Assembly: GCF_002210345.1 (NCBI RefSeq)
Contig: NZ_MWQI01000001.1
Span: 744,001 to 808,000 of the forward strand
DNA length: 64,000 bases
Source: Fibrobacter sp. UWB4
GTDB taxonomy: Bacteria > Fibrobacterota > Fibrobacteria > Fibrobacterales > Fibrobacteraceae
Direction of reading: 5' to 3'
The translations under genes were made by a program, and so were the position numbers. Numbering within the stretch: the first letter of the stretch is position 1; every line of letters begins with the position of its first letter. The notes beneath the pieces were generated by a model. It did no database searches. It had not been told where the DNA came from and was given only the letters and a program-made list of their open reading frames with translations. Below are positions 1,233 through 59,410 of this stretch, in pieces.

Positions 1233-1239
1233 TTTGTTT

Positions 1240-2217: not shown

Positions 2218-2220
2218 ATT

Positions 2221-3210: not shown

Positions 3211-3221
3211 TATTTTTATTT

Positions 3222-4424: not shown

Positions 4425-4431
4425 TTTTGTA

Positions 4432-5505: not shown

Positions 5506-6371
5506 TTATAGTTTCTTACAAAAATAATGAACGAACAATCGCTTACGTTCAAGGGGAACTTTCTAAGGTGAAAATTCCTCATAAGGTTGTTGTGGTGAAT
5601 AATGCTGCCACGTCCGAAAGTAATGCTGAACTTGCAAAAAATCTTAAAGCTGAGATTGTTGAAGTAGGGTGTTCAGTAGCGAATGATTCGAATGTCTATA
5701 TTGTAAATAATCCCGTAAATTCCGGTTTTGCCAAGGGCAATAATATTGGCGTAAAGTTTGCCATTGATGTTCTTAAGGCTGAATACATCCTCTTTTCTAA
5801 TAATGACATAAAGTTTATTGATAGCGATGTCGTAGAACGTTTGCAGAAAAAGTTGGAAGCTTTCCCTGATGCCGGTATAATTGGTCCTAAGGTTGTTGGT
5901 TTAAAAGGCGAAATGCAAAGTCCTGAACCGTATATGTCATTTTGGGATAGGACTGTTTGGATGTATGCCTCAACATTTTTTCTTTCTAAAGAAGCTAAAG
6001 CCAAACGTTTCAAATTCAATTATTCCCAAGACGCAAAAGAAGGCTTTCATTATAAAATTATGGGATCCTTTTTTATGGTTCGATCAAAAGATTTTGTCAA
6101 CTGCGGCATGATGGATGAAAATACATTTCTATATGCAGAAGAACCTATTCTTACAGAACGAATGAAAACCATTGGGTTGCATCCTTACTATTATCCAGAA
6201 GTTGCCGTACTTCATGATCATGGCGCTACGACAAAAAAGCATTTAAAGAAAAATAAAGGCTCTGATATTAAGTTTAAAAGCGAATGCTATTACTATCGAA
6301 AGTATATGCATACTCCAATATGGCAAATTTGGATTGGTAAGATCGTTCATTTTATATTGAGGTTGAAGTGA
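5493..6371 (+). CDS. Glycosyltransferase family 2, rhamnosyltransferase-like
   Basis: 292 residues starting at the ATG at 5493 (MLSIIIVSYKNN), which begins the GT-A fold at once; a longer frame to 5415 would only add residues overlapping the previous gene. Motifs seen are NNPVNSGFAKGNNIGVKFA near residue 70, the DXD-like FSNNDIKF near residue 98, and later FLYAEEPILTERM, the ED-type catalytic region. This is the WbbL/GT2 pattern that uses a nucleotide sugar to extend the lipid-linked repeat unit on the inner face of the membrane. Its stop overlaps the next start (GTGA). Confidence 0.85.
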   Translation: MLSIIIVSYKNNERTIAYVQGELSKVKIPHKVVVVNNAATSESNAELAKNLKAEIVEVGCSVANDSNVYIVNNPVNSGFAKGNNIGVKFAIDVLKAEYILFSNNDIKFIDSDVVERLQKKLEAFPDAGIIGPKVVGLKGEMQSPEPYMSFWDRTVWMYASTFFLSKEAKAKRFKFNYSQDAKEGFHYKIMGSFFMVRSKDFVNCGMMDENTFLYAEEPILTERMKTIGLHPYYYPEVAVLHDHGATTKKHLKKNKGSDIKFKSECYYYRKYMHTPIWQIWIGKIVHFILRLK

Positions 6372-7510
6372 AAATTCTGTTTATAACACATCATTACCTT
6401 TCTTCCAATGGCGGTGGAAGCTTTGCTTCTCGTGCTTACATCAATGCTTTCGCTGAAAATGCGGACGAAATGACTTTGCTTTATCCTGTAAAGGACGGCG
6501 AGGATTTGTTCCCGGAAATCAATAAAAAAATCAAGACGATTCCCGTGAAGTATAATCTCCCCAAATGGAGAAAACTCGTTGATTTGCTTTGTGGCAGAAT
6601 ACATCGATACTTTTCGATTGCTAGAGAGATGTTGAAAGAGGAAAGGTTTGATGTTGTTGTGTTTGATACGAGTCTTGTTTCTTATCGAATTATAAAAAAT
6701 TTCAAGGAAAAGGGATCAAGGACGATTGTAATACACCACAATTATCAATATGAATATTTTAAAGACAATGCAAAAGGGGTGCTGTCTTTTCCGACGTTGC
6801 TTTGGTGTAAAAGATATGAAAAACAAGCTGTTCGCAGTGCTGATCTGAACTTGACTTTGACGAAACAAGATATTGAATTGCTTGCGAATAACTATAACGG
6901 AGGAAATAAAGACTCTTTTTCCCTTTTAGGTGTATTTGAATACAAGCCGAGAGAAAAAATGGCAGCTGCGGAAAAAGAAAATCGAAATCCGAAGAATCGC
7001 TTTGTTATTACGGGCAGTTTATGTGATTTTCAAACGAAGCATTCTTTGATATCGTGGTTGCAAGATTATTATCCTGTTCTTAAACAAGTGTTTAGTGATG
7101 CTTCTTTGACAATTGCAGGGAGGAATCCAGGAGTTGAAATCCAAAATCTTTGTAGAGAAAACGACATTCATTTAATTCCTTCTCCCAAAAGTATGGATCC
7201 AATTATGGAGAACGCGGATTATTACATTTGCCCGACTTTTTTAGGTGGTGGCTTAAAACTTCGTGTAATGGATGGTTTAAAGTGGGGTTTGCCTGTTATT
7301 TCCCATTCGGTGTCTGCTAGAGGATATGAGTTATTTGAAGAACACGGATGTTTAATTTCATATCGTGATTTAGATGGCTTTAAGAGAGCCTTAGATACTT
7401 TGAAAAAAAATTATCTTGAAAAAGAAATGATTGTTAACATCTATCAAGAGTTCTTTACTTTAGAGTCAGGAATTAAAAGAGTGAAGCTATTTTTAAATCT
7501 GTTCCGTTGA
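6368..7510 (+). CDS. Glycosyltransferase (GT-B fold, GT4-like)
   Basis: 380 residues with a GTG start at 6368 overlapping the previous stop; GAGGT at 6359-6363 supports it. The N-terminal Rossmann half begins KILFITHHYLSSNGGGSFASRAYI. The C-terminal half has ITGSLCDFQ, DASLTIAGRNPG, then NADYYICPTFLGGGLKLRVMD near residues 280-300 and a GLPVISHSVSARG segment, matching the nucleotide-sugar binding half of GT4 enzymes, although the EX7E motif is weak. It probably adds one sugar of the repeat unit. Donor and linkage are unknown. Confidence 0.75.
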   Translation: MKILFITHHYLSSNGGGSFASRAYINAFAENADEMTLLYPVKDGEDLFPEINKKIKTIPVKYNLPKWRKLVDLLCGRIHRYFSIAREMLKEERFDVVVFDTSLVSYRIIKNFKEKGSRTIVIHHNYQYEYFKDNAKGVLSFPTLLWCKRYEKQAVRSADLNLTLTKQDIELLANNYNGGNKDSFSLLGVFEYKPREKMAAAEKENRNPKNRFVITGSLCDFQTKHSLISWLQDYYPVLKQVFSDASLTIAGRNPGVEIQNLCRENDIHLIPSPKSMDPIMENADYYICPTFLGGGLKLRVMDGLKWGLPVISHSVSARGYELFEEHGCLISYRDLDGFKRALDTLKKNYLEKEMIVNIYQEFFTLESGIKRVKLFLNLFR

Positions 7511-7520
7511 AAAAAAATGA

Positions 7521-7835
7521 AAAAGTGGTAAAACAATTCATATAGGCGAGGATTGCTTGTTTTCTAATCAAATAGAATTTCGTGTTGGGGACTCTCACAG
7601 CATTCTTGATGCAACTTCTAGAATGAGAATTAACCCTTCTATGGACATTAATGTGGGTAAACATGTGTGGATTGGTCACGACGTAAAGGTTTTAAAAGGC
7701 GCTAATGTTGGAAATAATTCAATCGTTGCGACAGGGGCTATTGTAACAAAAAATGATTATCCGAGTAATGTAATTATCGGTGGTGTAGGTAAAATTTTGA
7801 AGGAAAATATAGATTGGTGCCCTCAAAGGATTTAG
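7521..7835 (+). pseudogene. N-terminally truncated hexapeptide-repeat acetyltransferase remnant
   Basis: An open frame from just after a TGA at 7518 encodes a good C-terminal portion of a WbbJ/CatB-like left-handed beta-helix acyltransferase: TIHIGEDCLFSNQIEFR, GDSHSILD, RINPS, VGKHVWIGHDVKVLKGA and IVATGAIVTKN. There is no N-terminal half and no proper start codon; only a TTG at 7557 could begin a 92-residue product. Normal enzymes of this type are near 180-220 residues. It probably records loss of a sugar O- or N-acetyltransferase during recombination of the locus. A short translated product cannot be excluded. Confidence 0.65.
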
Positions 7836-7840
7836 GTTGT

Positions 7841-8956
7841 ATGAAAAAGAAACTTTTGATATTTCACCCGTATTTAACGACGTATCGAATTGATTTGTAT
7901 AATCGATTTGTTTGCGATTATGAGGTTCGTGTTGTTCTTACAGGGCATCCGAATGAAATTTCAGGTTTAGGGTTTGATGTTGAGAATGTAAATAATCAAG
8001 CCAAATTTGATTATAAGTATTATAATAATGGTCTTTTTTTTGGGCGTCAACAGATAACTTCTGTATATTTTAAAGTGATAAAAGAATTTAAGCCTGATAT
8101 TGTGCTGTGTCATGAATATGGCTTTAATACACTTGCAGCAATAATGCTTAAATCTCTTTATAAGTATAAGCTTTTTTTGACATGTGATGATAGTTATCAG
8201 ATGGCTTGTTCTTATGGGATAAAAAGAAAATTATTAAGAAATTTTGTTGTGAAAAATGCTGATGGTATTCTTGTAGTAAGTTCACAAACTAAGAATTTCT
8301 TGGAAAAAAATTATTTAAACCCTAAATGTAAATTTATTTATTTTCCGATAATTCAAGATGATGCTCTTTTATCCGATAAAATTATCAATTCAAAGAGTAT
8401 TGCTAAAAATTATGCAGAAAAATATTATTTAGATGGAAAGAAAATCCTCCTTTATGTTGGACGATTTGCGTTGGAAAAAAATATTTCGTTGCTTTTAGAA
8501 TCTTATAGTAGAATAAAAACTCCTGACGATATTCTTGTTCTTGTTGGTAATGGAAATCAAAGGGGGGTAATAACAAATCTTATTGAAAATTTGGAACTTG
8601 GAAAAAATGTAATTCTAACAGGTTCTCTTTATGCTGAAAATTTGTATGCATGGTATTATTTATGTGATGTTTTTGTACTTCCAAGCAAAAAGGAAGCTTT
8701 TGGTGCAGTGGTGAATGAGGCTTTAGTTGCGGGGTGCTTTAGTGTAGTTTCTAATAGTGCTGGGGCTTCTTGTCTTATTAATGATGGACAAAATGGGTAT
8801 GTTTTTGAAAGTGAAAATATTGTGGATTTGTCCGATAAACTTCAAATGGCTTTGAAAAGAGAAAAAAAGTCTGTCTGCGCAAGTATTATGTCTAGGTGCT
8901 TTGATTCTTTTTATAAAGATTTGTTAAATGCTTTTGAGGGTAATCTTTTTGAATGA
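7841..8956 (+). CDS. Glycosyltransferase family 4
   Basis: 371 residues from the ATG at 7841, supported by AAGGA at 7826-7830. It starts KKKLLIFHPYLTTYRIDLYNR. The C-terminal half shows ILLYVGRFALEKNISLLLESY near residue 205, ILVLVGNGNQ, FVLPSKKEAFGAVVNEALVAG near residues 280-300 (the EX7E region of retaining GT4 enzymes) and ASCLINDGQNGYVF. It should transfer a hexose from a nucleotide sugar to the growing repeat unit. The start of the next gene lies close behind its stop. AT-rich composition matches its neighbours. Confidence 0.87.
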   Translation: MKKKLLIFHPYLTTYRIDLYNRFVCDYEVRVVLTGHPNEISGLGFDVENVNNQAKFDYKYYNNGLFFGRQQITSVYFKVIKEFKPDIVLCHEYGFNTLAAIMLKSLYKYKLFLTCDDSYQMACSYGIKRKLLRNFVVKNADGILVVSSQTKNFLEKNYLNPKCKFIYFPIIQDDALLSDKIINSKSIAKNYAEKYYLDGKKILLYVGRFALEKNISLLLESYSRIKTPDDILVLVGNGNQRGVITNLIENLELGKNVILTGSLYAENLYAWYYLCDVFVLPSKKEAFGAVVNEALVAGCFSVVSNSAGASCLINDGQNGYVFESENIVDLSDKLQMALKREKKSVCASIMSRCFDSFYKDLLNAFEGNLFE

Positions 8957-9003
8957 TTGTGGATATCAAGTTTTTGATTCTGTTATTGCAAGGAACAAAA
9001 AAT

Positions 9004-9585
9004 ATGAAGATCGATTATACAAATAAACCTATTAAATCCTCTAGAGTTGGATTTGTATTAAGGTATCTAATGAATATAGTTAGATCTTGGATATATTTTC
9101 ATTTGATCTGGCGAAATGTAAAGTATAAAGGCTTCATTCGCGTTATGAAGGGGACTTCGTTTGCTTCTGGATTCAAAGTTGTTTTGGGGCATAATGTTCA
9201 ATTTGGCGATTATTGTAATGTTGCTACAGATTTGATTGTTGGTGACAATGTTCTTTTGGCGGGGCGAGTTTGTTTTGTTGGGAAAAACGATCATCAGTTT
9301 AATGTTCCTTGTAAAACGATATGGAGCAGTGAACGTCTTCAGTCTGGGGCTACAATAGTAGGTGATGATGTGTGGATTGGTCACGGGGCTACTGTTGTTG
9401 GTCCTGTACAAATTGGCCGAGGATCAGTTGTTGCCGCTGGTGCTGTAGTAACTAAAGATATTCCTGAGTGTGAAATTTGGGGCGGCGTACCTGCAAAGAA
9501 ACTTGGTGATAGATTTAAGAATCTAAGTGAAAAACAACAACATTTAAATTATTTAGAGTCTTTAAAAGGTGGAAAGGGCGCGTAG
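9004..9585 (+). CDS. Hexapeptide-repeat acyltransferase (WbbJ/CatB-like)
   Basis: 193 residues from the ATG at 9004, chosen because AGGA at 8991-8994 is nine bases upstream; an earlier ATG at 8953 overlaps the previous stop and lacks such a site. The protein has an N-terminal membrane-associating amphipathic stretch and then left-handed beta-helix repeats: GDNVLLAGRVCFVGKND, GDDVWIGHGATVVGPVQIGRG and VAAGAVVTKDIPE, finishing with WGGVPAKKLG. This is the acetyl-CoA-dependent sugar acetyltransferase family. It probably decorates the locus's polysaccharide and may be the functional counterpart of the remnant at 7521-7835. Confidence 0.85.
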   Translation: MKIDYTNKPIKSSRVGFVLRYLMNIVRSWIYFHLIWRNVKYKGFIRVMKGTSFASGFKVVLGHNVQFGDYCNVATDLIVGDNVLLAGRVCFVGKNDHQFNVPCKTIWSSERLQSGATIVGDDVWIGHGATVVGPVQIGRGSVVAAGAVVTKDIPECEIWGGVPAKKLGDRFKNLSEKQQHLNYLESLKGGKGA

Positions 9586-9705
9586 TTTAGATATCCTAAA
9601 AGCTTTGTGAATGCTATTTGTGTTTTTTTCATATCGTTCTTGCTGATTATTCCGTTTATTATGGTTTATAATAAGTCATTTCGTCCTTTGTTTCAAAGGT
9701 TTTGA
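9586..9705 (+). pseudogene. Possible C-terminal remnant of a membrane acyltransferase or polymerase
   Basis: Directly after the TAG of the acetyltransferase, the same frame stays open to a TGA at 9703-9705. It encodes a hydrophobic helix followed by a basic tail (AICVFFISFLLIIPFIMVYN, then KSFRPLFQRF). There is no start codon or ribosome binding site. It resembles the last membrane segment and cytoplasmic tail of an acyltransferase-3 protein. I read it as a leftover from gene replacement within the locus, but it is short and chance cannot be ruled out. Confidence 0.35.
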
Positions 9706-9710
9706 TTTGT

Positions 9711-11009
9711 ATGCTAAAAATTCTCATCAATTCGTACACATGTTGCCCTGATATGGGTTCTGAACAGGGTATGGGCTGGAACTGGATCACGTCTCTTGCT
9801 CGACATTGTGTATTATTTGTGATTACTGAAGGTGAATACCGTCCGCAAATTGAAGCTTGGCTTGCTGATTCTAAAAATGCAGAATTGGCTCGAGATATGC
9901 ATTTTTATTGGAATCCTATAGGGCTAAATGAATCCGAAAGTCAAAGGATTCGTAAAATGTGCTGGAATCAAGGGGACTGGCGCTTTTATAAGTTCTATAA
10001 AAAATGGCAGAAGAAAACCGCGAAAATTGCTGAAGCTATTTGCAAAAAAGAGAAAATTGATATACTGCATCAGCTGAATATGATTGGATTCCGCGAACCT
10101 GGTTATTTGTGGCTGGTTTCCAAGAAAACTGGTATCCCATTTGTGTGGGGGCCGATTGGTGGCTTAAAACAGTTCCCTCTTGCTTATGCAAGTGGTGCTG
10201 GCTTGAAAATGCGGGTGTTCAACTTCGTAAAAAACAAGATTAACAGTTGGCAGATAGCGTATGATAAGCGAGTTTCTGCTGCGCTGCACCAAGCATCTTT
10301 GCTGATTTCGTCTATTCCTGATAGCTATAATGCTATTAAGAAGTATCACAATTTGGAGTCTGTTGTTATTCCTGAAACGGGGTGCTTCTCGAATGAATTT
10401 TTGGATAATTTCCAAGGGCGTTTTAAAGGATCGCCTTTGGAAATATTATGGGTTGGAAAGTTTGACTTTAGAAAAAGGTTAGATATAGCCTTAAAATCAA
10501 TTGCTAAACTTTCATCAGATGTGAACGTCCGTTTAAAGGTTTGTGGCTCGGGAAGCGAAAATCAAATTTTTGCGGCGGAACAGTTGGCTTTGAATTTGAA
10601 AATTCAGGATCGTGTTGATTTTAAGGGAGCGTGTTCGCATGATACAATTGTAGATTTAATGAAAAAGTCTGATTTGTTTTTCTTCACTTCTGTAAGTGAG
10701 GATACATCTACTGTCGTTCTTGAAGCTATTAGTTGTAGCTTGCCTATATTGTGTTTTGATGCTTGTGGAATGTCTGCTGTTGTTGATGATTCGGTAGGAA
10801 TGAAAATTCCTTTGACGAATCCTGAACAGTCAATAAATGATTTTGCGCAAGCGATAACCCATCTGTACAACGATAGAGAAAAATTAGCGAAACTCTCTGC
10901 TAATTGCCATAAGCGTGCTGTAGAATTGTCGTGGGAAAACAAAGCGTTGCAAGTGCTGGAGCTGTATAAGAGTGCTGTTCTTACTTCAAAAAACGATACA
11001 CCCGACTAA
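9711..11009 (+). CDS. Glycosyltransferase family 4
   Basis: 432 residues from the ATG at 9711. The start KILINSYTCCPDMGSEQGMGWNW is the glycine-rich N-terminal loop seen in many GT4 enzymes. GPIGGLKQFPLAYA near residue 150 and PLEILWVGKFDFRKRLDIALKS near 245 are typical, and FFFTSVSEDTSTVVLEAISC near residues 325-345 holds the EX7E-like site. It is the last glycosyltransferase of the AT-rich block and has no gene directly behind it. It follows the possible remnant at 9586-9705 by five bases. Confidence 0.87.
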   Translation: MLKILINSYTCCPDMGSEQGMGWNWITSLARHCVLFVITEGEYRPQIEAWLADSKNAELARDMHFYWNPIGLNESESQRIRKMCWNQGDWRFYKFYKKWQKKTAKIAEAICKKEKIDILHQLNMIGFREPGYLWLVSKKTGIPFVWGPIGGLKQFPLAYASGAGLKMRVFNFVKNKINSWQIAYDKRVSAALHQASLLISSIPDSYNAIKKYHNLESVVIPETGCFSNEFLDNFQGRFKGSPLEILWVGKFDFRKRLDIALKSIAKLSSDVNVRLKVCGSGSENQIFAAEQLALNLKIQDRVDFKGACSHDTIVDLMKKSDLFFFTSVSEDTSTVVLEAISCSLPILCFDACGMSAVVDDSVGMKIPLTNPEQSINDFAQAITHLYNDREKLAKLSANCHKRAVELSWENKALQVLELYKSAVLTSKNDTPD

Positions 11010-11055
11010 GTTTGGCATAACGGGCTGATTACTTTGTTTAGTCAAATTCCCGCCT

Positions 11056-11471
11056 TCAATGCTGTGATTCTTCACAAGCGAAATTATTTTTTGTCAATGC
11101 ATCTCTGCGCTTTTGAATTTCTTCCAGGGAAATGCCCGAAATGGAGGAAATTTCTTCATCGGTCAATTTCCCATTTGCGAGCATTCCATCGACCATTTCG
11201 AGCTTGGCTTCTGCTCCCCTTCTTCTTTGTTTTCGTGAAGGTCAAATTCATAAGTCATATACTTGCTCCTTATGAGAGTGTCATCCTTGTAAAAAGATAC
11301 TTGGTCGTTGATAGTTTGAGTTTCATGGGTGTCCGCGTTCATGGTCGCGAAATATTTCATGTACGCCCGAACAACCGGATTAGTGAAGTCCTTGTACTTT
11401 TGCAAATATATAAAAAAGCGGAATCTTGTAAATTTTGCAACCAACCGTTTGCAAAAAACTTCATTTTGCAA
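11056..11471 (-). pseudogene. Decayed PD-(D/E)XK nuclease / Rpn-family transposase-like gene
   Basis: On the minus strand, a frame ending near 11165 encodes KDFTNPVVRAYMKYFATMN, a KDDTLIRSKYMTYEFDLHENK segment and then an unlikely tail. In another frame the sequence continues sensibly as KLEMVDGMLANGKLTDEEIS, followed by ISGISLEEIQKRRDA, to a TGA at 11056-11058. A single indel near 11210 joins the two. The pattern is that of the C terminus of Rpn/TIGR01784-type recombination-promoting nucleases, which end in a helical linker and a small helix-turn-helix-like domain. The nuclease core is missing. This remnant fills most of the gap between 11010 and 11550. Confidence 0.6.
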
Positions 11472-11550
11472 ACTAAAGAATTACAACAAAAAGAGTTTAC
11501 AAAAAGGTTACAGTAAGCTATCTTTGTAATCACGGAATTGGGTTTATTCT

Positions 11551-45925: not shown

Positions 45926-46333
45926 TGTTTTTCCTGATTTGTATTGGTTTATTTTAAAAAATAGTTTTTTTTGGAATGTTTTGTCACTTTTCGGAGCTGT
46001 TTAGAGACGGATAAGGCCGCTTTTTTATCCAATTTTACAAAAAATTTACAATAGATTGGGGCTATAACAGTTTTTTTTCACAGTAGGTGTTTTTTTGAAA
46101 GGAGGTCTTTAGGCGACTTTTTTTGCCTGCTTTCGTATAACTCGTTGATAGTCAAGGAATTATGCGATTTATGGAAAATTGTTGGACAAAAATATCTTTT
46201 TTTGCTATGAAAAAAGATGATAGACAATTGAAAAGATTTTAAGGAAAAGCGTTATATTTAAATACGTTTTAAGGACGTGTGATAAATTTCATAGGGAAAT
46301 TTTGATTGCGTGTATGGTATTCGGAGAAATAAA
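45926..46333 (+). promoter_or_regulatory. Intergenic region upstream of the giant repeat-protein gene
   Basis: About 400 AT-rich bases. TTGAAA at 46228-46233 and TTATAT at 46252-46257, 18 bases apart, make a plausible promoter. GGAGA at 46323-46327 is the ribosome binding site for the ATG at 46334. A GAAAGGAGG sequence near 46100 is not followed by a coding frame of any length. No RNA element was recognised. Confidence 0.35.
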
Positions 46334-49300
46334 ATGAATAAACTGAAAAGGTCCATGACGACCTTGCTTGCTTCTGCTAGTGTGATTGCAACGTCATCGT
46401 TTGCGCAAAATCCTGCACCTGCGGCCCCGGCTCCACAAGATGCTCCCGCGCCTGCAGCTGCTCCTGTGAGCGAACCCGCCCCGGCTGTTGAACCTGCTCC
46501 GGCGAACGAACCCCCTCAAGTTGGCGGCATTCCAGGCGAATCCATCCTGGAAGGCGGAACTTTTTCGAAGATTAAACTCGACAATTTTGTATCTGACGAT
46601 TCTGACCAGCCCTCGCAGATCCGTTGGAAGGTGAGCGGCAACAAGAATTTGAAGGTTTCGATTGCTCCCGACCATACTGTTGAAATTGCGACTCCGAATC
46701 CGCTTTGGAACGGTTCGGAAGACTTGACCTTTACGGCAACGGACTCCAAGGGCGCTTCTGCTTCTGAAACGGTGAACTTTACGGTTGAATCCGTGAATAA
46801 CCCGCCAGTGGTTTCGCAGATCCCGAGCCAGGTCATTACGGAAGGCAAACAGTTTGCAAAGATCCGTCTGGACGACTTTGTGAACGACCCGGACCATAAG
46901 AAGGACCAGATCTCCTGGGATACGGAAGTTATCCCGGCTGGTGGTCCCCAGGCTGATGGCGACCTGTCCGTGACGATTGACGGAAACCGTGTAGCGACAG
47001 TCGTCGTCCCTGATGCTCATTGGTATGGCGCTGCCACAATCAAGTTTATTGCCAATGACCCGGATTACGGTAGCGACAACAAGACGGCCGCATTTACGGT
47101 TACTCCGGTGAATGACCCTCCGGCATTCACGAAGAAAATCCCGGACCAGGTTATTGATGAAAAGAACCAGTTCGACATGATATCCCTTGCGGACTATGTT
47201 ACGGACCCGGATGACGATGTCATGAAGCTCAAGTGGTCGGTGACGGGTAACAAGGACTTGAAGATCGAAATCGATAATTACGGCTCTGCCATCGTGACCA
47301 TCCCGAATGAATACTGGAACGGTCAGGAACGCGTGACGTTTACCGTGACGGACGCTGCCGGCGCTTCTGCAAAGCAGGACGTGCTCTTCAAGGTGAACTC
47401 CATTAACGATGCTCCTGAGTTTGTTCAGAACATTCCTGACCAGACGATTGACGAAAAGCAGGAATTTGCACCGATCCAGCTTGGACAGTACGTGAAGGAT
47501 CCTGACCACCGCATCGAAATGCTGAAGTGGGCTGTCTCGGGTGCCAAGGACTTGAAAGTCTCTGTTTCTGGCGGCGTTGCTACGATTCGCATTCCGAACA
47601 AGCTTTGGAATGGCTCTGAATCCATCAAGTTCAAGGCTACGGACCCGGAAGGCGCTTCTGCAGATTGCGAAGCCATGTTTACGGTCAACTCCGTGAACGA
47701 CTTGCCGAAGTTTATTCGCCCGATTCCGGCACAGAACATCAACGAAAAGCAGCAGTTCACAAAGATCAAGCTTGATGACTTCGTCAAGGACGAAGACCAC
47801 AAGAATTCCGAACTTTCCTGGGATGTCGAAGTCAAGCACCAGGGCCCGATGCCGGAAATGGGTACGCTCAATGTGACGATTGATGACCAGCATGTCGCCA
47901 CTGTTGAAATCCCGGACCCGAGCTGGAATGGCAACACGGTTGCTACATTCACCGTGACGGACCCGGAAGGCGGTTCTGCAAAGCAGGATGTCGCCCTTAA
48001 CGTGCGCTCTGTGAACGATCCGCCGGTATTCAAGAAAATCCCGGACCAGGCTATCGAAGAAAAGAACGAATTTACTTCGTTTATTCTAGATGACTACCTG
48101 AGCGATGCTGACCATGACTTCTCCAAGCTCAAGGTTGAAGTGACGGGCAACAGGGATCTCAAGGTCAATATCGATAACAGATCCCATGAAGTTTCTGTGA
48201 AGATCCCGCACGACCAGTGGAATGGCACCGAAACGTTGATGTTTACGGCTACGGACCCGGAAGGCGCTCGTGCATCGACTTCTGCCAAGTTTACGGTCAA
48301 GGCGATCAACGACCCGCCGGTCATGAAGGACATTCGCGAACAGACCATCAAGGAAAAGGGCGAATTCCAGCCGATTGAACTTGATAATTTTGTTGAAGAC
48401 CTTGACCATGCCAAGAATCGCCTCAAGTGGACGATTACGGGCAACAAGGAACTCAAGGTCGCTATGGATGCTGCCCATGTTGCACGTATCACTCCGCCGT
48501 CTCCGCAGTGGCACGGTGCCGAAGCTCTGACGTTCAAGGTTTGCGACCCGGATAACGCTTGCGATGAACGCACGGCGAACTTCACGGTGGAATCCGTGAA
48601 CGACGTTCCGATGTTCGTGAAGCAGGTCATGCCGCAGACGATTCGCGAAAAGGGCCAGTTCCAGCCGATTAAGCTTGCTGATCTTGTGAAGGACTTGGAT
48701 AACAAGCTTTCTGAACTCACGTTCTCTGTCTCTAGCAAGCCGGCTGCCGGTTCCAAGAAGAGAGATTCTGAACTCAAGGTCGAAATTGATGATCAGAAGG
48801 TTGCAAAGATTGTTATTCCGAACAAGTTCTGGAATGGCGCTGAAGAAATTACGTTTACGGTGACGGACCCGGAAGGTGCCAAGGCTTCTTCTTCTGCACT
48901 CTTCACTGTGGAATCCGTGAACGACCTCCCGGAAATCAAGCAGGTCGTAGACCAGACCATTCAGGAAAAGGGTGAATTCACTCCGTTCAACGTGTCTGAA
49001 CTCGTGTCTGACCCGGATGACCGTTTTGAAAGCCTGAAGATTGACTTTACGGGCAATAAGGACCTCAAGGTCGATATGTCCAAGGCGGGCGTCGTGACCG
49101 TCAAGACCCCGAACAAGATGTGGAACGGTTCCGAAAAGGTGACGTTCACCGTGACGGACCCGTCTGGTGCTAAGGCCCGCACGACGGCAACATTTACCGT
49201 TGTCTCCGTGAACGACCCGCCGGTCATGAAGGAAATTGCAAGTCAGACTGTCAAGGAAAAGGAATCGTTCAAGCCGATTGAACTTGACAATTACGTTGAA

Positions 49301-52300
49301 GACCTTGACCATGCCAAGAATCGCCTCAAGTGGAAGATCGAAGGCAACAAGGATCTCCGCGTGACGATGGATGCAACGCATAAGGTGACCGTGACTCCGC
49401 CGAACGCAAGCTGGAACGGTTCTGAAAAGATCCGCTTCACGGTGACGGACCCGGATGGCGCCTCGGATAGCAAGGAAGTGACATTTACCGTGCTTTCTGT
49501 GAACGATGCTCCGGAATTTGTACGTGACCTCCGCGACCAGTCGATTGACGAAAAGAAGCAGTTCCAGCCGATCAAGCTTGCTGACTTCGTGAAGGATGCG
49601 GACCACAAGATTAGCGATCTCAAGTGGACGTTCAAGGTAAGCCCGATTAGCCAGGCTTCTTCCAAGAAGAAAGGCAAGAAGGATGACGAAGAACCGGCTG
49701 GTGAAATGCTCCGCGTGAACGTGGATGCAAACCAGGTGGCTAACATTGTCATCCCGAACAAGTACTGGCACGGCGCTGCAAACATCACGTTTACGGCAAC
49801 GGACCCGGAAGGCGCTTCTGCAAGCAAGACGGCTCGCTTTGAAGTGCGCTCCGTGAACGATGCTCCGGTGATTGCTGCTAACGCTCCGACGGGCGAAACG
49901 ATTCTCGAAGGTGGCCGTTTCAAGACGATCGACCTTTCGACTCTCGCCGAAGACCCGGATCATCCAGCATCTTCCTTGAAGTGGGAAGTTTCTGGCAATC
50001 GTGACCTCAAGGTGGATATCCGCAAGGACAACACCGTGATTATCTCTGTCCCGGACAAGCAGTGGAGCGGTAAGGAAAACCTCACGTTCTCCGTGACGGA
50101 CCCGGAAGGCGCTTACGCTCGCCACAAGATGCTCTTTGAAGTGACACGTGTGAACGATCCTCCTACGTTCGTAAAGAGAATCCCGGACCAGAAGATCAAG
50201 GAAAAGGAAACCTTCAAGCAGATCAAGCTTGACGAATTCGTGAAGGACCCGGACAACAAGCCGAATGAACTCCGCTGGAGAATCACGGGTGCCAAGCAGC
50301 TCAAGGCTGAAATCTCTGCAAGCCGCGTACTTACGGTGACGGCTCCGAACAAGGATTTCTGGTGCACACCAGAACTGATGATGCTCGAAGTGAGCGACCC
50401 GGATGGTGCCAAGACTTCCCAGACGATTTCGTTTGAAATTGTGTCTGTGAACGATCCTCCGGTCTTGAGGGACATTCCGCCGCAGAAAATCCGTGAAAAG
50501 GGACAGTTCAAGGATATCGACTTGAGCAAGTTTGTGCGCGACCCGGATAACTCCATGGAACAGCTTTCCTGGGCTGTCAAGGTGCAAAAGCCGGAATCTG
50601 AACAGGCCAAGAAGAGCAAAAAGGGCAAGAAGGGTAAGAAGGATGACGACGACGAGGAAGAAGAAGTTGTCAAGGATGCCTTCAGTGTCGTGATCTATAA
50701 GGGTGGCCTCGCTCATATAAACATTGCCGACAAGTACTGGCATGGTGAACGCAATGTCGTGTTCACGGTGAAGGATCCGGATGGAGCAACGGACTCCAAG
50801 ACTGTGAATTTTGCAGTGGAATCTGTGAATGACGCTCCGGTTATCAGACCGATTTTGGCCCAGACCATCAAGGAAAAGGAACACTTTGAACCGATTGACT
50901 TGACGAAGTTTGTATCTGACCCGGACCATCCGACAAGTTCCTTGAAATTTGAAATCGCTCCGACTCGCGCTCTCAAGGCGACAATCAATGCAAAGAAGCA
51001 GCTCGTGGTGACCACTCCGGACAAGTACTGGAACGGCTCTGAAAAGATCCGTCTCGACGTGACCGACCCGGAAGGCGCTAGGGCTTCTCAGCAGATTGAC
51101 TTTGAAGTGACTCCTGTGAACGATCCTCCTGTGATTACGAAGGAAATCGGCAATCAGAAGATCAAGGAAAAAGAAAGATTTACTCCGGTTGATCTTGCAA
51201 AGATCGTGAATGACCCGGATAACAAGCCGAATGAGCTCAAGTGGACTGTTTCTGGCAACAAGGATCTCGTTGTCGATATCAAGAACGGCCGCGCCAGCGT
51301 GACGACTCCGAACCCGAACTGGTTTGGCAAGGAAACGCTTACGTTCACGGTGATGGATCCGGCTGGCGACAAGCAGTCTGCCAAGGCTACATTCGAAGTG
51401 ATCCCGGTGAACGATCCTCCGAAGTTTAAGCCGATCCCGCCGCAGGTCATCGATGAAAAGAAGACCTTCCCGGCTATTGACTTGACCAAGTTTGTGACGG
51501 ACCCGGACAACAGCGTCGATGAACTCAAGTGGTCTATCGATGGCGAAAATCCGTTTGCCGCTGCTCCTGCAAAGTCCAAGAAGAAGGACAAGAAAAAGGA
51601 CAAGAAGAAAAAGAAGCATGTTGAAGAAGAGCCTGCTCCGAAGTTCGGAAAGCATGAACTCAAGTACAACATTAGCGACAAGGGTATCCTCACTGTTGAA
51701 ATCCCGAACAAGTACTGGAATGGTAGTGAAACGGTGACGATCAACGTGTTTGACCCGAGCAAGGAAAAGGCTTCTACTGAAGTGCGCTTTACGGTGAAGT
51801 CCGTGAACGACGTTCCTGTGGTGAAGGAAATTCCGGGACAGACGACTCTCGAAGGCAAGGCGTTCAAGCCGATTAACTTGGATGACTTTGTTAGCGACCC
51901 GGACCATAAGAACAGCGAAATTCGTTGGAAGGTTACTGGCGCCAAGAATCTTGACGTGAGAATCAACGCTAATCGCGTTGCGGAAATCAAGCCGAGAAGA
52001 GACAACTGGTTCGGTGACGAAACGCTCGTCTTTACGGCTACGGACCCGGCTGGTGGTACGGATAAGTCTGTTGTGAAGTTCGTCGTGAAGCATGTGAATG
52101 CGGCTCCGGTGATGCGCGACATTCCTGACTATACCATCAGGGAAAATCAGAATGAAGGCGTGATTGCAACGATTAAGCTTGACCAGTACGCTCGCGATAA
52201 GGACCACAACTTCGACGATCTCAAGTGGAAGTTCACGGGTCAGAAGCAGTTGCAGGTGACCTACGACAAGGCCAAGAAGACTGTGATTGTGGCTCAGCCG

Positions 52301-52747
52301 TACTCTCATTGGAAGGGCAAGCCGGAACGCATCACGTTCACGGTTACAGACCCGGAAGGTGCAACGGCCCATAAGACAGCTACATTCACGGTGATTGCCG
52401 TGAACAATGCTCCTGAAACTAAGCCGCTTTCTTACCAGACTCGCGAAGGCGAAACGCTCAAGGTCCCGGCATATACAGGCCTCATGTCTGCCGCTAAGGA
52501 CCCGGATGGCGATAGGCTCGAATCTGTGAAGACTGTGATGAAGCCGCGCAACGGTCGAATCGTCTTGAATGAAAAGAACGGTTCCTTTGAATACACCCCG
52601 AACAAGGGCTTCTCTGGAATTGATGAATTTACGTACAAGGTGTTTGACCCGTCTGGACTCGGTTCCAAGGTGACGAACGTGGAAATCAATGTCCAGTTCA
52701 AGCCGAAGGATGTCCGCGGCAATAGCGCGAACAAGAAAAAGAAATAA
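46334..52747 (+). CDS. Giant secreted cadherin/Ig-like tandem-repeat protein
   Basis: 2137 residues from the ATG at 46334 (NKLKRSMTTLLASASVIATS signal peptide, cleavage near SFAQ). A Pro/Ala linker (about 28-65) precedes about 19 similar repeats of roughly 95-120 residues, and one final repeat of PF17963 cadherin-like type (YTPNKGFSGIDEFTYKVFDP). Each repeat follows the order IPxQxIxEK, FxxIxLDxFVxDPDH, LxWxVxGNKDLKV, PNxxWNGxExITFTVTDPEG, FTVxSVNDPP. The repeated D-P-D and N-D-P groups suggest calcium at domain joints. Three repeats carry Lys/Asp/Glu-rich insertions near 49650, 50610 and 51570. No sorting signal was seen at the C terminus (KKKK). It is likely a surface adhesin, perhaps for fibre attachment; this is inference. 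Confidence 0.9.
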   Translation: MNKLKRSMTTLLASASVIATSSFAQNPAPAAPAPQDAPAPAAAPVSEPAPAVEPAPANEPPQVGGIPGESILEGGTFSKIKLDNFVSDDSDQPSQIRWKVSGNKNLKVSIAPDHTVEIATPNPLWNGSEDLTFTATDSKGASASETVNFTVESVNNPPVVSQIPSQVITEGKQFAKIRLDDFVNDPDHKKDQISWDTEVIPAGGPQADGDLSVTIDGNRVATVVVPDAHWYGAATIKFIANDPDYGSDNKTAAFTVTPVNDPPAFTKKIPDQVIDEKNQFDMISLADYVTDPDDDVMKLKWSVTGNKDLKIEIDNYGSAIVTIPNEYWNGQERVTFTVTDAAGASAKQDVLFKVNSINDAPEFVQNIPDQTIDEKQEFAPIQLGQYVKDPDHRIEMLKWAVSGAKDLKVSVSGGVATIRIPNKLWNGSESIKFKATDPEGASADCEAMFTVNSVNDLPKFIRPIPAQNINEKQQFTKIKLDDFVKDEDHKNSELSWDVEVKHQGPMPEMGTLNVTIDDQHVATVEIPDPSWNGNTVATFTVTDPEGGSAKQDVALNVRSVNDPPVFKKIPDQAIEEKNEFTSFILDDYLSDADHDFSKLKVEVTGNRDLKVNIDNRSHEVSVKIPHDQWNGTETLMFTATDPEGARASTSAKFTVKAINDPPVMKDIREQTIKEKGEFQPIELDNFVEDLDHAKNRLKWTITGNKELKVAMDAAHVARITPPSPQWHGAEALTFKVCDPDNACDERTANFTVESVNDVPMFVKQVMPQTIREKGQFQPIKLADLVKDLDNKLSELTFSVSSKPAAGSKKRDSELKVEIDDQKVAKIVIPNKFWNGAEEITFTVTDPEGAKASSSALFTVESVNDLPEIKQVVDQTIQEKGEFTPFNVSELVSDPDDRFESLKIDFTGNKDLKVDMSKAGVVTVKTPNKMWNGSEKVTFTVTDPSGAKARTTATFTVVSVNDPPVMKEIASQTVKEKESFKPIELDNYVEDLDHAKNRLKWKIEGNKDLRVTMDATHKVTVTPPNASWNGSEKIRFTVTDPDGASDSKEVTFTVLSVNDAPEFVRDLRDQSIDEKKQFQPIKLADFVKDADHKISDLKWTFKVSPISQASSKKKGKKDDEEPAGEMLRVNVDANQVANIVIPNKYWHGAANITFTATDPEGASASKTARFEVRSVNDAPVIAANAPTGETILEGGRFKTIDLSTLAEDPDHPASSLKWEVSGNRDLKVDIRKDNTVIISVPDKQWSGKENLTFSVTDPEGAYARHKMLFEVTRVNDPPTFVKRIPDQKIKEKETFKQIKLDEFVKDPDNKPNELRWRITGAKQLKAEISASRVLTVTAPNKDFWCTPELMMLEVSDPDGAKTSQTISFEIVSVNDPPVLRDIPPQKIREKGQFKDIDLSKFVRDPDNSMEQLSWAVKVQKPESEQAKKSKKGKKGKKDDDDEEEEVVKDAFSVVIYKGGLAHINIADKYWHGERNVVFTVKDPDGATDSKTVNFAVESVNDAPVIRPILAQTIKEKEHFEPIDLTKFVSDPDHPTSSLKFEIAPTRALKATINAKKQLVVTTPDKYWNGSEKIRLDVTDPEGARASQQIDFEVTPVNDPPVITKEIGNQKIKEKERFTPVDLAKIVNDPDNKPNELKWTVSGNKDLVVDIKNGRASVTTPNPNWFGKETLTFTVMDPAGDKQSAKATFEVIPVNDPPKFKPIPPQVIDEKKTFPAIDLTKFVTDPDNSVDELKWSIDGENPFAAAPAKSKKKDKKKDKKKKKHVEEEPAPKFGKHELKYNISDKGILTVEIPNKYWNGSETVTINVFDPSKEKASTEVRFTVKSVNDVPVVKEIPGQTTLEGKAFKPINLDDFVSDPDHKNSEIRWKVTGAKNLDVRINANRVAEIKPRRDNWFGDETLVFTATDPAGGTDKSVVKFVVKHVNAAPVMRDIPDYTIRENQNEGVIATIKLDQYARDKDHNFDDLKWKFTGQKQLQVTYDKAKKTVIVAQPYSHWKGKPERITFTVTDPEGATAHKTATFTVIAVNNAPETKPLSYQTREGETLKVPAYTGLMSAAKDPDGDRLESVKTVMKPRNGRIVLNEKNGSFEYTPNKGFSGIDEFTYKVFDPSGLGSKVTNVEINVQFKPKDVRGNSANKKKK

Positions 52748-55248: not shown

Positions 55249-55360
55249 TGGGGAAGTAGGAAGTAGACGGTAGGAAGTAGGAAGAGATCGTTTCTTGGTT
55301 ATGCTTTTGTCATTCCCGCCGGAGCCTGTGCTGAGCGGAGTCGATGTAAGCGGGAATCAC
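55246..55360. repeat. Heptamer array and CATTCCCGCC palindrome behind prfC
   Basis: GTAGGAA GTAGACG GTAGGAA GTAGGAA units begin within a few bases of the prfC stop. GTCATTCCCGCCGG at 55309 is matched by GCGGGAATCAC at 55350-55360, enclosing CTGAGCGGAG. The palindrome could act as the 3' end of the prfC message. Confidence 0.75.
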
Positions 55361-55426
55361 CTTTTTTAACGACAACTTTTAGTTAAGTCGTCGTTTTTTA
55401 TTGGTGTAAAAAAAATTGCGACAGAT

Positions 55427-55837
55427 TTAAGGCGAACGACTTTTATTTTCACGGAAAAACATCAAATAAGATGTCCCGAGCGCATCGGCTAACTTCTTTG
55501 ACATGAGCATAGAAATGGGCCTGGCTCCTCGTTCAAGCGAATTATAATTTTGTTTTGCGAGACCAACTTTTTGTGCCAACTGCGCTTGCGTAAGTCCTGC
55601 GTTTATGCGCATTATTTTCAGCGTCTTGGCTGGATTTATATTTTTTTTCGCCTTCTTGTACCAATCCATTTCTTCCACTGGCTCGAGAACGTCATCGTCG
55701 TCTTCGATACGGACGGAATCGGGGAACAGCGCGTCCAAAAAGGCAATGACTGGTTTCGGAATATTCTTGCCCGAAACTTTGAAAGACACCGGTTCATCAG
55801 TGTTCTGCATAGGGGGCGCTTCCACGACTGCCTGCAT
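55427..55837 (-). CDS. XRE-family helix-turn-helix antitoxin (HigA/RelB-type partner)
   Basis: 136 residues from the ATG at 55837, with GGAGG six bases ahead. Residues 70-125 form a Cro/CI helix-turn-helix (TLKIMRINAGLTQAQLAQKV, then GLAKQNYNSLERGARPIS). The N-terminal half is acidic and probably binds the toxin. It overlaps the toxin gene's 3' end by 41 bases, so the pair is translationally linked with the toxin first, as in higBA loci. It should repress its own promoter upstream of 56072. Confidence 0.87.
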   Translation of the reverse strand: MQAVVEAPPMQNTDEPVSFKVSGKNIPKPVIAFLDALFPDSVRIEDDDDVLEPVEEMDWYKKAKKNINPAKTLKIMRINAGLTQAQLAQKVGLAKQNYNSLERGARPISMLMSKKLADALGTSYLMFFRENKSRSP

Positions 55838-56072
55838 AAGTAACCTCCACAGTTATTCCTTTTTCCGTTTCAACCCAACACGCCACCCATTTGTGGGATA
55901 GGTGACAATGATGAGTAGACGTTCCTGCCAATATTCCGTAATTTGGCCAATTTGTTCTGACGGGGCCGTTCATCCGTATGTCGTCAACAAGCAACGCCAG
56001 TTTTTCTTGTTGTTTTTGGGGCATTGCTGAAACAGCCCGAGAGACCCTTCTCGACATTAAAATATTGTACAT
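55797..56072 (-). CDS. RelE/HigB-type mRNA interferase toxin
   Basis: 91 residues. The sequence VSRAVSAMPQKQQEKLALLV, then NWPNYGILAGTSTHHCHLSH and VACWVETEKGITVEVTYAG, is typical of the HigB-like group (cytotoxic translational repressors), where the HxHL strand and the final basic strand line the active site. It is paired with the helix-turn-helix gene that overlaps its 3' end. An internal ATG at 56057 is an alternative start. No other toxin-antitoxin partner is nearby; the AT-rich HD-Hsp90 gene follows upstream. Confidence 0.8.
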   Translation of the reverse strand: MYNILMSRRVSRAVSAMPQKQQEKLALLVDDIRMNGPVRTNWPNYGILAGTSTHHCHLSHKWVACWVETEKGITVEVTYAGSRGSAPYAEH

Positions 56073-56121
56073 AATAAATATATATTACTTTTTATTACTC
56101 GTCAACCTCCGTATTACAAAA

Positions 56122-56154
56122 ATGGAACCGGTCACAATTTGCAACCTGGTTCCA
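56122..56154. repeat. Inverted repeat in the toxin-antitoxin upstream region
   Basis: TGGAACCGG and CCTGGTTCCA are separated by 13 bases. It lies between the toxin start and the HD-Hsp90 stop. It could be an operator or a weak terminator; no T tract follows. The rest of 56073-56303 shows nothing else. Confidence 0.5.
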
Positions 56155-56303
56155 TCAACAATCTTATGGGCTTTTCTTCACTTCCTTCATCATCAACTCC
56201 TTTGCGTTACAAGTAAAAAAAACGCAAGATTACTACACCATTAAATATACATTCCCATTTTGTTAGAAAATGTCAAAAGTTGTTTGGTAAAGAAGGAAAA
56301 TAT

Positions 56304-58898
56304 TTAATTGGGCGCTTCTTTCGGTGACTTTGTTATGACATAATCACATGCTTCAATGATTTCTTTTCCAGAAATGGTTCCGACAACTTCCTTAATTGGT
56401 TGATCAATGGTGCTTTCTTTCGTTATGAGATTGACGTCTTCTTGCCAAACTTCCGCACATGCTTTTGCTATAATAGTTGATAGAATCATGGTTTCTTTGT
56501 AAATCGGAAAATAATCATGTCGATTAAAAGTTCTTAACATCCTAAAATTGCTAGATCTCAGAATATAGGGAATGAAAGAGACACTCCAGAATGTATTGTC
56601 ACTATAAACAATATTGTGTTCTTCTAAAATGTCAGTCATTGTTTTTTGAAAAATAACATACTTGTTATAAGCTGTGGTATTGATTATTTGTTTTATATCG
56701 TTGTAATTGACTGGTTTGCCCTTATAGTATGCTACGTGTAAATTCTTTGTATTGGCACAAAAAGCATGTACTACAGATGCGATCTGGAAATCTGGATCAT
56801 CTTTTTCCCAAGATAGGTCTTCAGATAATATTTCTACTTGCTCCTCAATCCATTTTTTGAAATCACTTTCAGAAATACATGGGTATGCTCTATATCTATT
56901 TGCTTCATGACAGGTTGCCGTTAAAACGCCCATATAACGCCTTGTATTACCGGCGGCTATCCCCCCAACAGTTAAGAATCCATCAACGTTTGCATCAAGA
57001 CATCCTCTACCAAGGATGTCTCCTTTTTGATTTTTTACTAATCTTACCCTAGAACTGATTTCTTTTAAGTAAGCATCATTGATTTCTTTATCACCAAAGT
57101 GATAATATTTTCTTTTATTATTCGCGTGTATCCTTTTAAGAAAATCAAATGGATCCATTGTTTTCCAGTCATTTGCGCTTATAATCTTTTTTTTACTAGT
57201 CATGTTTGTTGTTAAGTATATATTACAATCCATGCATGAAAATAAACTTGCTATATAAGAATCTATAGGGACTTTTGTTTCTGCAAGTTCATCGCTTAAT
57301 TTTGAAGGATCCTTTAGGTGTACGCGTATTTTTGTACCCCCGTTTTTTATATATTCATTTTGTTCAGCCCGTCTTAATAAAGGCCTTGATTTAGATCCTG
57401 CTGTAAATTCAAGAACCCTAGTGTCTTCACGATGTTCATCATATCTTCGTGTGGTTACAGTAACCTTGTCTCCTAACATAAAAACAGAGTAAAAGCCTAT
57501 CCCAAAATGCCCTGTTGATTGAAAACCCGAATTTTCTAATCCAGGGAGTTCATCTCGCATTAAACTTGAATGCCAAAAAGAGGTCCCGAAATCAAGAAAA
57601 GGTCCTGCTAACACCTTTTCTGACATGCCAATTCCCGTGTCCTCAACTTCAATAAATGGTTCTTCTGAGCTTGTATCTATGGTAATGTTGATATCACCCC
57701 AAGATTCGTCCTCGTTATCCATTTTGCGACGTGCTCGAATTGCATCTGATGCGTTCTGAACCATTTCTCTTAAGGGAACGAGTTGGTTGTCGCCATATAG
57801 GGCTACACCACCTAACGATTGAACGAGGCTAGACACGTTTGTCACTTTCATTTGGATGTCAACAGGAGTCCATCCATCGACCTTAATATGTGTTGATAGA
57901 GCTTTCGGTGAATCAATATCTTTTACGCAATAGGCTCCTAAAGGTTCAATGTTTAATCTTGAAAATAGCAAGTCGACATCGCGGAGTTCTTGATTTATCA
58001 TTTTAAGCGTGTCGTGACACAACCACCAACTATCTCGTTCGGATTTTGAGAAAGCTGAATTTGATATGTAAACTAATTGACCTTTTTGAACTGAGGGATT
58101 GTGCAATTTAGAATGAAAATTCCAATGAAGACGAGATTGATTGTTTAATTTTTGCGTAAACCATAAAATATAGGGCGTTCTGTCGGCCGTAATGTGAATG
58201 GCGTCGGCGATTCTAAGAATGCAAGCCAATTTTAATGGACTCAATTTCCATTGTGACGGAAATCCAGACGGAGAAATCTCTTCATTAAGAGTCTCTTTTT
58301 CGATTTCATCCATGGCTAAACCATGGCTTGCTGCAATTTCTCCAATAGTACTTCCAAAAGATTCTCTCAAATCAGGATTTTCAATAAGATACGCGTACTC
58401 TTTTTTAAATCCCTTTTCAGCTTCGAAACGGAACAAGGGTAATTCCTTTGCATTTAGGGTGTGCTGTTTCCGAATAGTTTCTTCATCAGCTTTTCGTTGG
58501 GCTTCATCTTGTGCGTGTGTTTCCCTAATGAAATATGCGTAGGTATCTTTCCACAAATCGGTCTCCCTTAATGAAGAGTAATCATTATAAATAGCGGGAC
58601 TCATTCCTAAATCATGAAATAAAAAAGAACAGCCTAGAACATAAGCTTCAACAGGATTTATTTTAATTTCAGAATCTGTTAAAATGATGTCCGTCATTTG
58701 CCATAATGCGTCTGAATGCGATATATTATGTACGGTATATCCCGGAAATAAAGATGGTATTTTGCCAAGAAACTCTGCAATTCGCTCTCTTGTTTGGATA
58801 AAGGATGCTTGTAGTATATTGATTTTATCTTGGTTTGCATCATTAGTTAAACCAAGAGTTTCATTCCATAATTTTGATGTCTTATAGTCGTAATCCAT
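56304..58898 (-). CDS. HD-domain / Hsp90-like ATPase fusion protein
   Basis: 864 residues from the ATG at 58898 with AGAGG seven bases before it. Residues 55-300 form an HD metal-hydrolase domain: His57/His61 (HNISHSDALW), His95-Asp96 (FLFHDLG), a His at 192 and Asp232 (ILRIADAIHITADR). Residues about 360-560 form a GHKL ATPase closest to Hsp90: Glu378 and Asn382 (REMVQNASDAI), Asp420 (EDTGIGMS) and GHFGIGFYS at 463-471. The remaining 300 residues resemble Hsp90 middle segments in feel. Residues for metal and ATP binding are intact. It is AT-rich, sits alone next to a toxin-antitoxin pair, and has no client or operon partner. The role is unknown; a stress or anti-phage function is inference. 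Confidence 0.8.
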   Translation of the reverse strand: MDYDYKTSKLWNETLGLTNDANQDKINILQASFIQTRERIAEFLGKIPSLFPGYTVHNISHSDALWQMTDIILTDSEIKINPVEAYVLGCSFLFHDLGMSPAIYNDYSSLRETDLWKDTYAYFIRETHAQDEAQRKADEETIRKQHTLNAKELPLFRFEAEKGFKKEYAYLIENPDLRESFGSTIGEIAASHGLAMDEIEKETLNEEISPSGFPSQWKLSPLKLACILRIADAIHITADRTPYILWFTQKLNNQSRLHWNFHSKLHNPSVQKGQLVYISNSAFSKSERDSWWLCHDTLKMINQELRDVDLLFSRLNIEPLGAYCVKDIDSPKALSTHIKVDGWTPVDIQMKVTNVSSLVQSLGGVALYGDNQLVPLREMVQNASDAIRARRKMDNEDESWGDINITIDTSSEEPFIEVEDTGIGMSEKVLAGPFLDFGTSFWHSSLMRDELPGLENSGFQSTGHFGIGFYSVFMLGDKVTVTTRRYDEHREDTRVLEFTAGSKSRPLLRRAEQNEYIKNGGTKIRVHLKDPSKLSDELAETKVPIDSYIASLFSCMDCNIYLTTNMTSKKKIISANDWKTMDPFDFLKRIHANNKRKYYHFGDKEINDAYLKEISSRVRLVKNQKGDILGRGCLDANVDGFLTVGGIAAGNTRRYMGVLTATCHEANRYRAYPCISESDFKKWIEEQVEILSEDLSWEKDDPDFQIASVVHAFCANTKNLHVAYYKGKPVNYNDIKQIINTTAYNKYVIFQKTMTDILEEHNIVYSDNTFWSVSFIPYILRSSNFRMLRTFNRHDYFPIYKETMILSTIIAKACAEVWQEDVNLITKESTIDQPIKEVVGTISGKEIIEACDYVITKSPKEAPN

Positions 58899-58943
58899 GT
58901 AAGAACCTCTATGCAGGAGGATTTTTTTGATGGTAAAGTACAC

Positions 58944-59320
58944 CGTTAATTTACATTTAAAATATAGCCAAATTATTCATAATTATTTCCATGACAATTT
59001 GCAAATGAGTGGTGTTTTATCTATCCGTTGCTGGAGGTGGGGCCTGGTGTTTGTATATATATTCACTTTTGATATCGGATTTGATAATTAGGGGTTGTTT
59101 GCTGCTCTTTGATCGACTCAAAATCCCGAAAATGCGAAAAAGTGCTACCAAAAGCTGGAAAAAGTGTTTTTTGACATCATGCTTTCTATATAAATTAATT
59201 AGAATGAGGCGTTTTTGAGTCTTTGTAGCGTTGCCTGTGTTACCAAATTGGCCGAGAATGGCGTTTTGGTACCATAAAACCGGCAAAAATGGTCTGTCTG
59301 TTCTTTTTTAAGGCCGCGAA
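58944..59320. other. Long intergenic region without a supported gene
   Basis: Nearly 380 bases, AT-rich at the left. A stretch with AAAAAGTG twice (59136-59169) and GGTACCATAAAACC near 59268 shows short inverted repeats. Frames here are short and unlike proteins. Nothing further can be supported. Confidence 0.5.
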
Positions 59321-59350
59321 CTTCCTACTTCCTACTTCCTACTGTCTACT
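59321..59350. repeat. Heptamer array CTTCCTA upstream of lysS
   Basis: Three CTTCCTA units and one CTGTCTA unit. The orientation is inverse to the array at 60922 behind lysS. Confidence 0.85.
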
Positions 59351-59383
59351 AAAAAGCTATCTTTACCCCGTTCAAATTTAAGA

Positions 59384-59398
59384 CGTGATATATTCACG
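59384..59398. promoter_or_regulatory. Perfect palindrome before lysS
   Basis: CGTGATATATTCACG, a five-base inverted repeat around TATAT, ends just before the ACGAGGTAAT ribosome binding region of lysS. It could be an operator or a -10-containing site. Confidence 0.4.
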
Positions 59399-59410
59399 AG
59401 GTAATACAAT

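Follow-up and report, generated by a model that had tools for sequence, protein, structure and literature searches.

The window analysed here is a 64,000-nucleotide stretch of the genome of Fibrobacter sp. UWB4, in which a large minus-strand gene occupies a variable interval between the housekeeping genes prfC and lysS. The gene encodes a single protein joining an HD domain to an Hsp90-type ATPase module, and lies beside two small overlapping genes that resemble a toxin-antitoxin (TA) pair. The features are as follows:

55249..59410, no strand: variable hotspot interval between prfC and lysS, from gap sizes and contents in 14 genomes
55427..56072, minus strand: TA-like pair, an HTH protein (55427-55837) and an overlapping 91-aa protein (55797-56072)
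56279..59091, no strand: approximate exchangeable cassette around the fusion gene, from blastn of hotspot loci
56304..58898, minus strand: HD-Hsp90 fusion gene, 864 aa, ATG at 58898, stop at 56304, open reading frame intact
57981..58748, minus strand: HD-CE domain, residues 51-306, from Pfam PF24391 (E 5e-52), conservation and an AlphaFold2 model
57279..57806, minus strand: Hsp90/GHKL N-type ATPase domain, about residues 365-540, with E378, N382, D420 and G463-G468
56385..57278, minus strand: predicted Hsp90 middle-domain-like region, about residues 541-838, from VIA-align, parts of low confidence

We preferred the ATG at 58898 to a GTG at 58943 as the start codon because an AGAGG motif, by eye similar to a ribosome-binding site, precedes the ATG by 7-8 nt. 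The GC content of the fusion gene is 0.363 vs 0.550 for prfC and 0.535 for lysS, in agreement with the initial annotation, which had described the gene as AT-rich against its neighbours. On the left, DNA homology with three relatives stops at base 56278, 26 bases from the fusion stop codon, and on the right it restarts near 59092-59118 in other relatives (blastn); together these two ends outline the cassette. The adjoining pair had been called a toxin-antitoxin pair. The overlapping HTH and 91-aa proteins are real, and a similar overlapping pair of an HTH and a small protein is found on Leptospira weilii plasmids, but no toxin family was recognised for the 91-aa protein in profile-library or PDB searches. 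The pair is a separate cassette, incidental to the fusion gene, since each occurs in the hotspot without the other: three genomes (G066, G125 and G105) have the pair and no fusion gene there, and in G134 the fusion gene stands without the pair. These loci rule out the pair as a functional partner.

Elsewhere in the window, positions 1-11500 form an AT-rich block (GC 0.29-0.40) with genes that by eye resemble those for glycosyltransferases and acyltransferases, a probable surface-polysaccharide cluster, and positions 46310-52747 encode a 2145-aa protein with about 20 cadherin-like repeats and lysine-rich inserts.

Two active sites in one protein

Profile searches of both halves, proposed with the initial annotation, assigned the N-terminal domain to the Pfam family HD-CE with a match spanning the full profile (177.6 bits vs a curated cut-off of 27); the name of this family carries no tested function. 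HD-CE was likewise matched by 12 of 12 sequences of one homologue alignment. The metal ligands typical of the HD hydrolase superfamily (H...HD...D) are present, and the site that had been read from the window as intact (His61, His95-Asp96 and Asp232) is invariant in 21 of 21 aligned homologues, which disposes of the objection that the HD site might not be conserved. This alignment comprises the window protein, two more Fibrobacter proteins, those of Roseburia, nine viral contigs, Nonomuraea and Zymomonas, and chromosomal loci of Bacteroidota, Pseudomonadota and Actinomycetota; both active sites are invariant in it at identities of 28-54%. Four residues missed at first reading, His57, Arg143, His146 and His192, are equally invariant in the 21 sequences. 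An archaeal protein, aligned separately, keeps the residues of both sites that the initial annotation had named. In class I cyclic-nucleotide phosphodiesterases (PDEs), an H-x3-H...HD...D arrangement is found in which the first histidine is the general acid. The fusion has H57-x3-H61, then HD 34 residues further on and finally D232, which we take to be this same arrangement.

We modelled the HD part alone (residues 1-345) with AlphaFold2, and obtained a pLDDT of 86.7 and a pTM of 0.87. By Z score, the closest folds to this model were the HD domain of PPX/GppA (PPX, Z 11.0 over 187 residues) and, at a Z of about 9-10 over some 240 residues, class I PDEs (TbrPDEB1, Z 10.0 over 236), values of 10-11 being indecisive for a helical domain. 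Searched with Foldseek alone, the HD domain had no significant structural match (best E 0.17), nor did viral models yield one, and hence we treat the likeness to PPX and PDEs as a lead only. These domains are the nearest in fold, but show no sequence-profile match: the PDEase_I profile did not match the HD domain even at E 10. The dGTPase profile of PADLOC did not match the fusion protein either. A search of the open-access literature for HD-CE or PF24391 returned unrelated abbreviations and no paper on the family.

In the C-terminal half, Pfam HATPase_c_3 matched residues 376-507 (E 2e-8), and in a phmmer search of the PDB the N domains of Hsp90 and TRAP1 matched residues of about 365-540 (E 1.5e-14). 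The motifs of the GHKL/Hsp90 ATPase superfamily (E, N, D and glycine loop) are all present, and the ATP site claimed for the protein (Glu378, Asn382, Asp420 and the 463-468 glycine loop) proved invariant in all 21 homologues; Arg668, overlooked in the initial annotation, is invariant in homologues wherever it is covered. Beyond the ATP pocket, this half models as an Hsp90 N-plus-middle module, parts of it with low confidence. In an AlphaFold2 model built from 12 sequences (pLDDT 76.5, pTM 0.69; pLDDT under 50 at residues 638-673, inside the middle-domain-like region), VIA-align superposed residues 365-816 on the Hsp90 N and middle domains (6xlg_A, Z 19.7, 364 residues, rmsd 6.5), and a second Hsp90 structure, 8u1m_A, gave a Z of 19.4. 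In most Hsp90 alignments the match breaks off around the end of the middle domain; we saw no C-terminal dimerisation domain, and the tail is of low confidence. The fusion thus shares with Hsp90, HtpG and TRAP1 the ATP-site motifs and the N/middle fold (Z about 19 over 364 residues); unlike them, it carries HD-CE, and it scores 85 bits against the HtpG equivalog, below the cut-off of 371. The host genome encodes a separate HtpG, and the fusion is therefore not the Hsp90 of the cell.

Distribution, hotspot cargo and genomic neighbours

The full-length fusion protein is encoded by 3 of 80 genomes of the genus, each from a different species; the others mostly contain only a match to HtpG, and a few have only weaker HATPase or HD-CE relatives. 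We found prfC and lysS adjacent in 14 genomes, separated by 236-10,017 bp. The cargo of this interval varies: the window has the fusion gene and the TA-like pair, G134 the fusion gene with a KAP NTPase (PDC-S49) and a SocA/Panacea gene, and G131 a NERD nuclease plus another large open reading frame. G105 and G125 contain a 1200-residue protein, and G066 has nothing but the TA-like pair. In G081, G104, G130 and G060 the interval is near-empty, and in G060, whose LysS matches that of the window at 100%, the gap measures 502 bp and holds no large cargo gene. The copy of G134, the only other genome with the fusion at this site, is about 53% identical to that of the window, while LysS is 97% and RF3, the prfC product, 100% identical. 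This is the pattern given by independent acquisition or allelic replacement.

Other cargo genes of the interval deserve mention in their own right. The 1200-residue protein (L109:2193-5792 in G105, with its counterpart in L117 of G125) occupies the lysS-proximal slot without a Pfam match; its C-terminal motif GELDF...VVFEA looks nuclease-like by eye, making it a further defence candidate. In G131, a 544-aa protein (L113:2197-3828) lies beside the NERD-domain protein (L113:3892-5832); it contains EVGEIDFLGY...VCFEFK, restriction-endonuclease-like by eye, and has no Pfam match.

Outside the genus, profile matches at E<=1e-40 were found in 3 of 395 Bacteroidota, 2 of 393 Bacillota, 5 of 393 Pseudomonadota and 1 of 376 Actinomycetota genomes, counts for which phyla were inferred and which take in a few distant or split copies as well as the genomes that supplied the queries. 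Further homologues belong to a Methanosarcinales archaeon, a Zymomonas plasmid and ten viral contigs. A FastTree phylogeny placed the three Fibrobacter copies together, next to those of Roseburia, P2-like prophages and the archaeon, and its grouping of the homologues is discordant with the phyla. In the genome contigs, detection required an alignment as query, a single-protein search having returned nothing; a distant DNA search of an E. coli collection with one P2-prophage homologue gave no match, and phage GenBank records gave partial matches only, over the Hsp90-type region. Split or shortened HD-CE-HATPase genes were seen in Maribacter (L026:9875-12264), Aliarcobacter (L015:9887-11101) and a member of the Pseudomonadota (L156:8769-10109), and may represent decay or two-gene versions.

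Several homologues lie on mobile elements. The L165 copy sits between gpA (PHROG 91) and the portal gene gpQ (PHROG 68); the gpA-gpQ interval of P2 is a hotspot for anti-phage systems, holding old and tin in P2 itself (PMC9122126). The copies of L161-L163 are downstream of a repressor (PHROG 4 in L161 and L162), those of L160 and L164 are on contigs with terminase genes, and another viral copy (L107) is near an integrase-like open reading frame. Among Pseudomonadota copies, L153 adjoins a tyrosine integrase and L156 is near a MobA/MobL relaxase.

The neighbourhood of the homologues was then compared with that of controls, an analysis suggested with the initial annotation. At E<=1e-30, 27 PADLOC families were found among 89 neighbour proteins vs 6 among 89 control proteins from other places, mostly in the same genomes, a tally of families rather than proteins that involves no formal test, ignores phylogeny and includes three families without an assigned protein (PDC-M41B, PDC-M30B and PDC-S05). 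Beside full-length homologues we recognised a type IIG restriction-modification (RM) gene (5e-246) and PDC-S57 (1e-82) in G098, PDC-S49 (3e-72) in G134, a TIR-NLR (4e-44) in Zymomonas and an AriA-like ATPase (4e-18) in G385. Distant HD-CE-HATPase proteins are found near ZacA (7e-89), ZacB (5e-151) and ZacC (8e-280) in Hungatella, presumably the Azaca system, and near LmuA (1e-16) and LmuB (2e-54) of Lamassu in G520; these two relatives are about 25% identical to the fusion, and part of the evidence from defence neighbours rests on them. By annotation, others are near a type I RM system in Priestia and Shedu in Aliarcobacter. No recognised defence gene was among the neighbours of the homologues of G991, G1192, G1420 and Roseburia.

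The arrangement of some of these loci is itself of interest. In G520 (L151:3865-10804), the distant HD-CE-HATPase gene is directly upstream of, and co-oriented with, the LmuA/LmuB pair, of which it is possibly an accessory component. In Hungatella (L027:1978-12235), ZacA, ZacB, ZacC, a KAP NTPase and then the distant HD-CE-HATPase gene all run the same way, arranged like a single defence operon; KAP NTPases thus adjoin HD-CE genes in two unrelated loci, this one and G134. The gene preceding the Roseburia homologue (L024:7662-8876) encodes a protein that starts with KKQCFLISPIGEEGSKSRE and by eye resembles a TIR domain or a deoxyribosyltransferase, a likeness that no Pfam or PADLOC match supports.

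Candidate role and relation to known systems

The gene is mobile between hosts, travels on prophages, lies in variable hotspots that defence genes use and encodes two complete active sites. Because it is rare, swappable, prophage-carried and found among defence genes, it is probably a bacterial immune protein. The reading of the gene as an anti-phage candidate is thus well supported by its context, which includes a variable hotspot, prophages with the P2 hotspot among them, and some defence neighbours. We consider it moderately likely that the fusion is a mobile single-gene system against phages or other mobile elements, built as an HD hydrolase gated by an ATP clamp. As to how it may work, a sensor-effector mechanism in which an ATP switch gates hydrolysis is a reasonable hypothesis. 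Driven by ATP, the Hsp90-like N-M half would serve as a clamp that detects infection; its cue may be a phage product bound as a client, or the nucleotide state of the cell. ATP-dependent closure or dimerisation would then turn on the HD domain, whose substrate, most likely a nucleotide, would be cut at a phosphodiester or phosphoanhydride bond; this cleavage would halt phage replication or the cell. That the clamp itself is the infection sensor, with a phage client inducing ATP-dependent closure and so switching on a phosphodiesterase-like HD effector, is a tentative proposal and rather unlikely in this exact form; to our knowledge, no Hsp90-type clamp acts as an immune sensor in bacteria.

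Alternatively, the protein could be a stress-response regulator without a role against phages, its Hsp90-like part sensing protein or heat stress and its HD part turning over a stress nucleotide. The Hsp90 kinship of the ATPase half would suit this role, as would the presence among the nearest HD folds of PPX/GppA, which acts in polyphosphate and (p)ppGpp metabolism; but the fusion is scarce and patchily distributed, it occurs on prophages and within a variable hotspot, and the cell has its own HtpG, so that we judge this account quite improbable. There is also only a small chance that the gene is an accessory factor of prophages or plasmids, serving counter-defence (for example, breakdown of a cyclic-nucleotide immune signal by a PDE-like HD domain) or the control of its carrier element. 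The PDE-like arrangement and fold, and the repressors that prophage copies adjoin, are consistent with such a factor, yet the gene is also chromosomal, in a bacterial hotspot with other defence-like cargo, the neighbours examined included no recognisable signal synthase, and so large an ATPase would seem superfluous for signal breakdown.

Two further explanations arise from the position of the gene in the window. Its adjacency to the HTH-91aa pair would fit the toxin of a toxin-antitoxin or addiction module, but with the pair and the fusion found apart in the four hotspots described above, this is very unlikely. The flanking genes are housekeeping genes and two genomes have the fusion in the same interval, as would be expected of a core gene inherited vertically with prfC and lysS, an objection already foreseen in the initial annotation. 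The fusion is missing from 77 of the 80 genus genomes, including G060 with its identical LysS, and it is variable cargo whose copies have diverged far more than their flanks; we give a core housekeeping role practically no credence.

Comparison with known systems places the candidate immune protein near two of them. VcSduA, a Shedu protein, combines a GHKL ATPase with a nuclease, and defence needs both (PMC12137116). Like the fusion, it unites a GHKL ATPase and a hydrolytic effector in one polypeptide, but its effector is a C-terminal PD-(D/E)xK domain (DUF4263), whereas the fusion has an N-terminal HD-CE and a GHKL domain of the Hsp90 type; with no DUF4263 match in Pfam or PADLOC, membership of Shedu is ruled out. 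In Clover, the HD dNTPase CloA is an immune effector (PMC12265719). The fusion shares the HD hydrolase with CloA and the dGTPase defence proteins, but it has neither a dGTPase profile match nor a nucleotidyltransferase partner, and an ATP clamp is fused to it instead. The profiles thus exclude it from dGTPase defence as they do from HtpG. We do not regard the fusion as categorically new: HD-CE is already named in Pfam, and fusions of GHKL ATPases with effectors have precedents. A selection from the E. coli pangenome (PMC9519451) and a 2026 BREX survey (PMC12839542) contain none of the Hsp90, GHKL and HD terms looked for, and in DefensePredictor (PMC13092281) HATPase appears solely in the abbreviation list.

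If the preferred reading is true, the known defence systems gain a single-gene family in which an Hsp90-like ATP clamp is coupled to an HD hydrolase. This family, for which the PADLOC 2023 profiles have no model and the open-access papers searched gave no match, ranges from Fibrobacter to an archaeon and includes P2-like prophages. One plasmid is enough to test it, and dead mutants of both halves are obvious. In Fibrobacter, the prfC-lysS interval is a hotspot that holds several further defence candidates.
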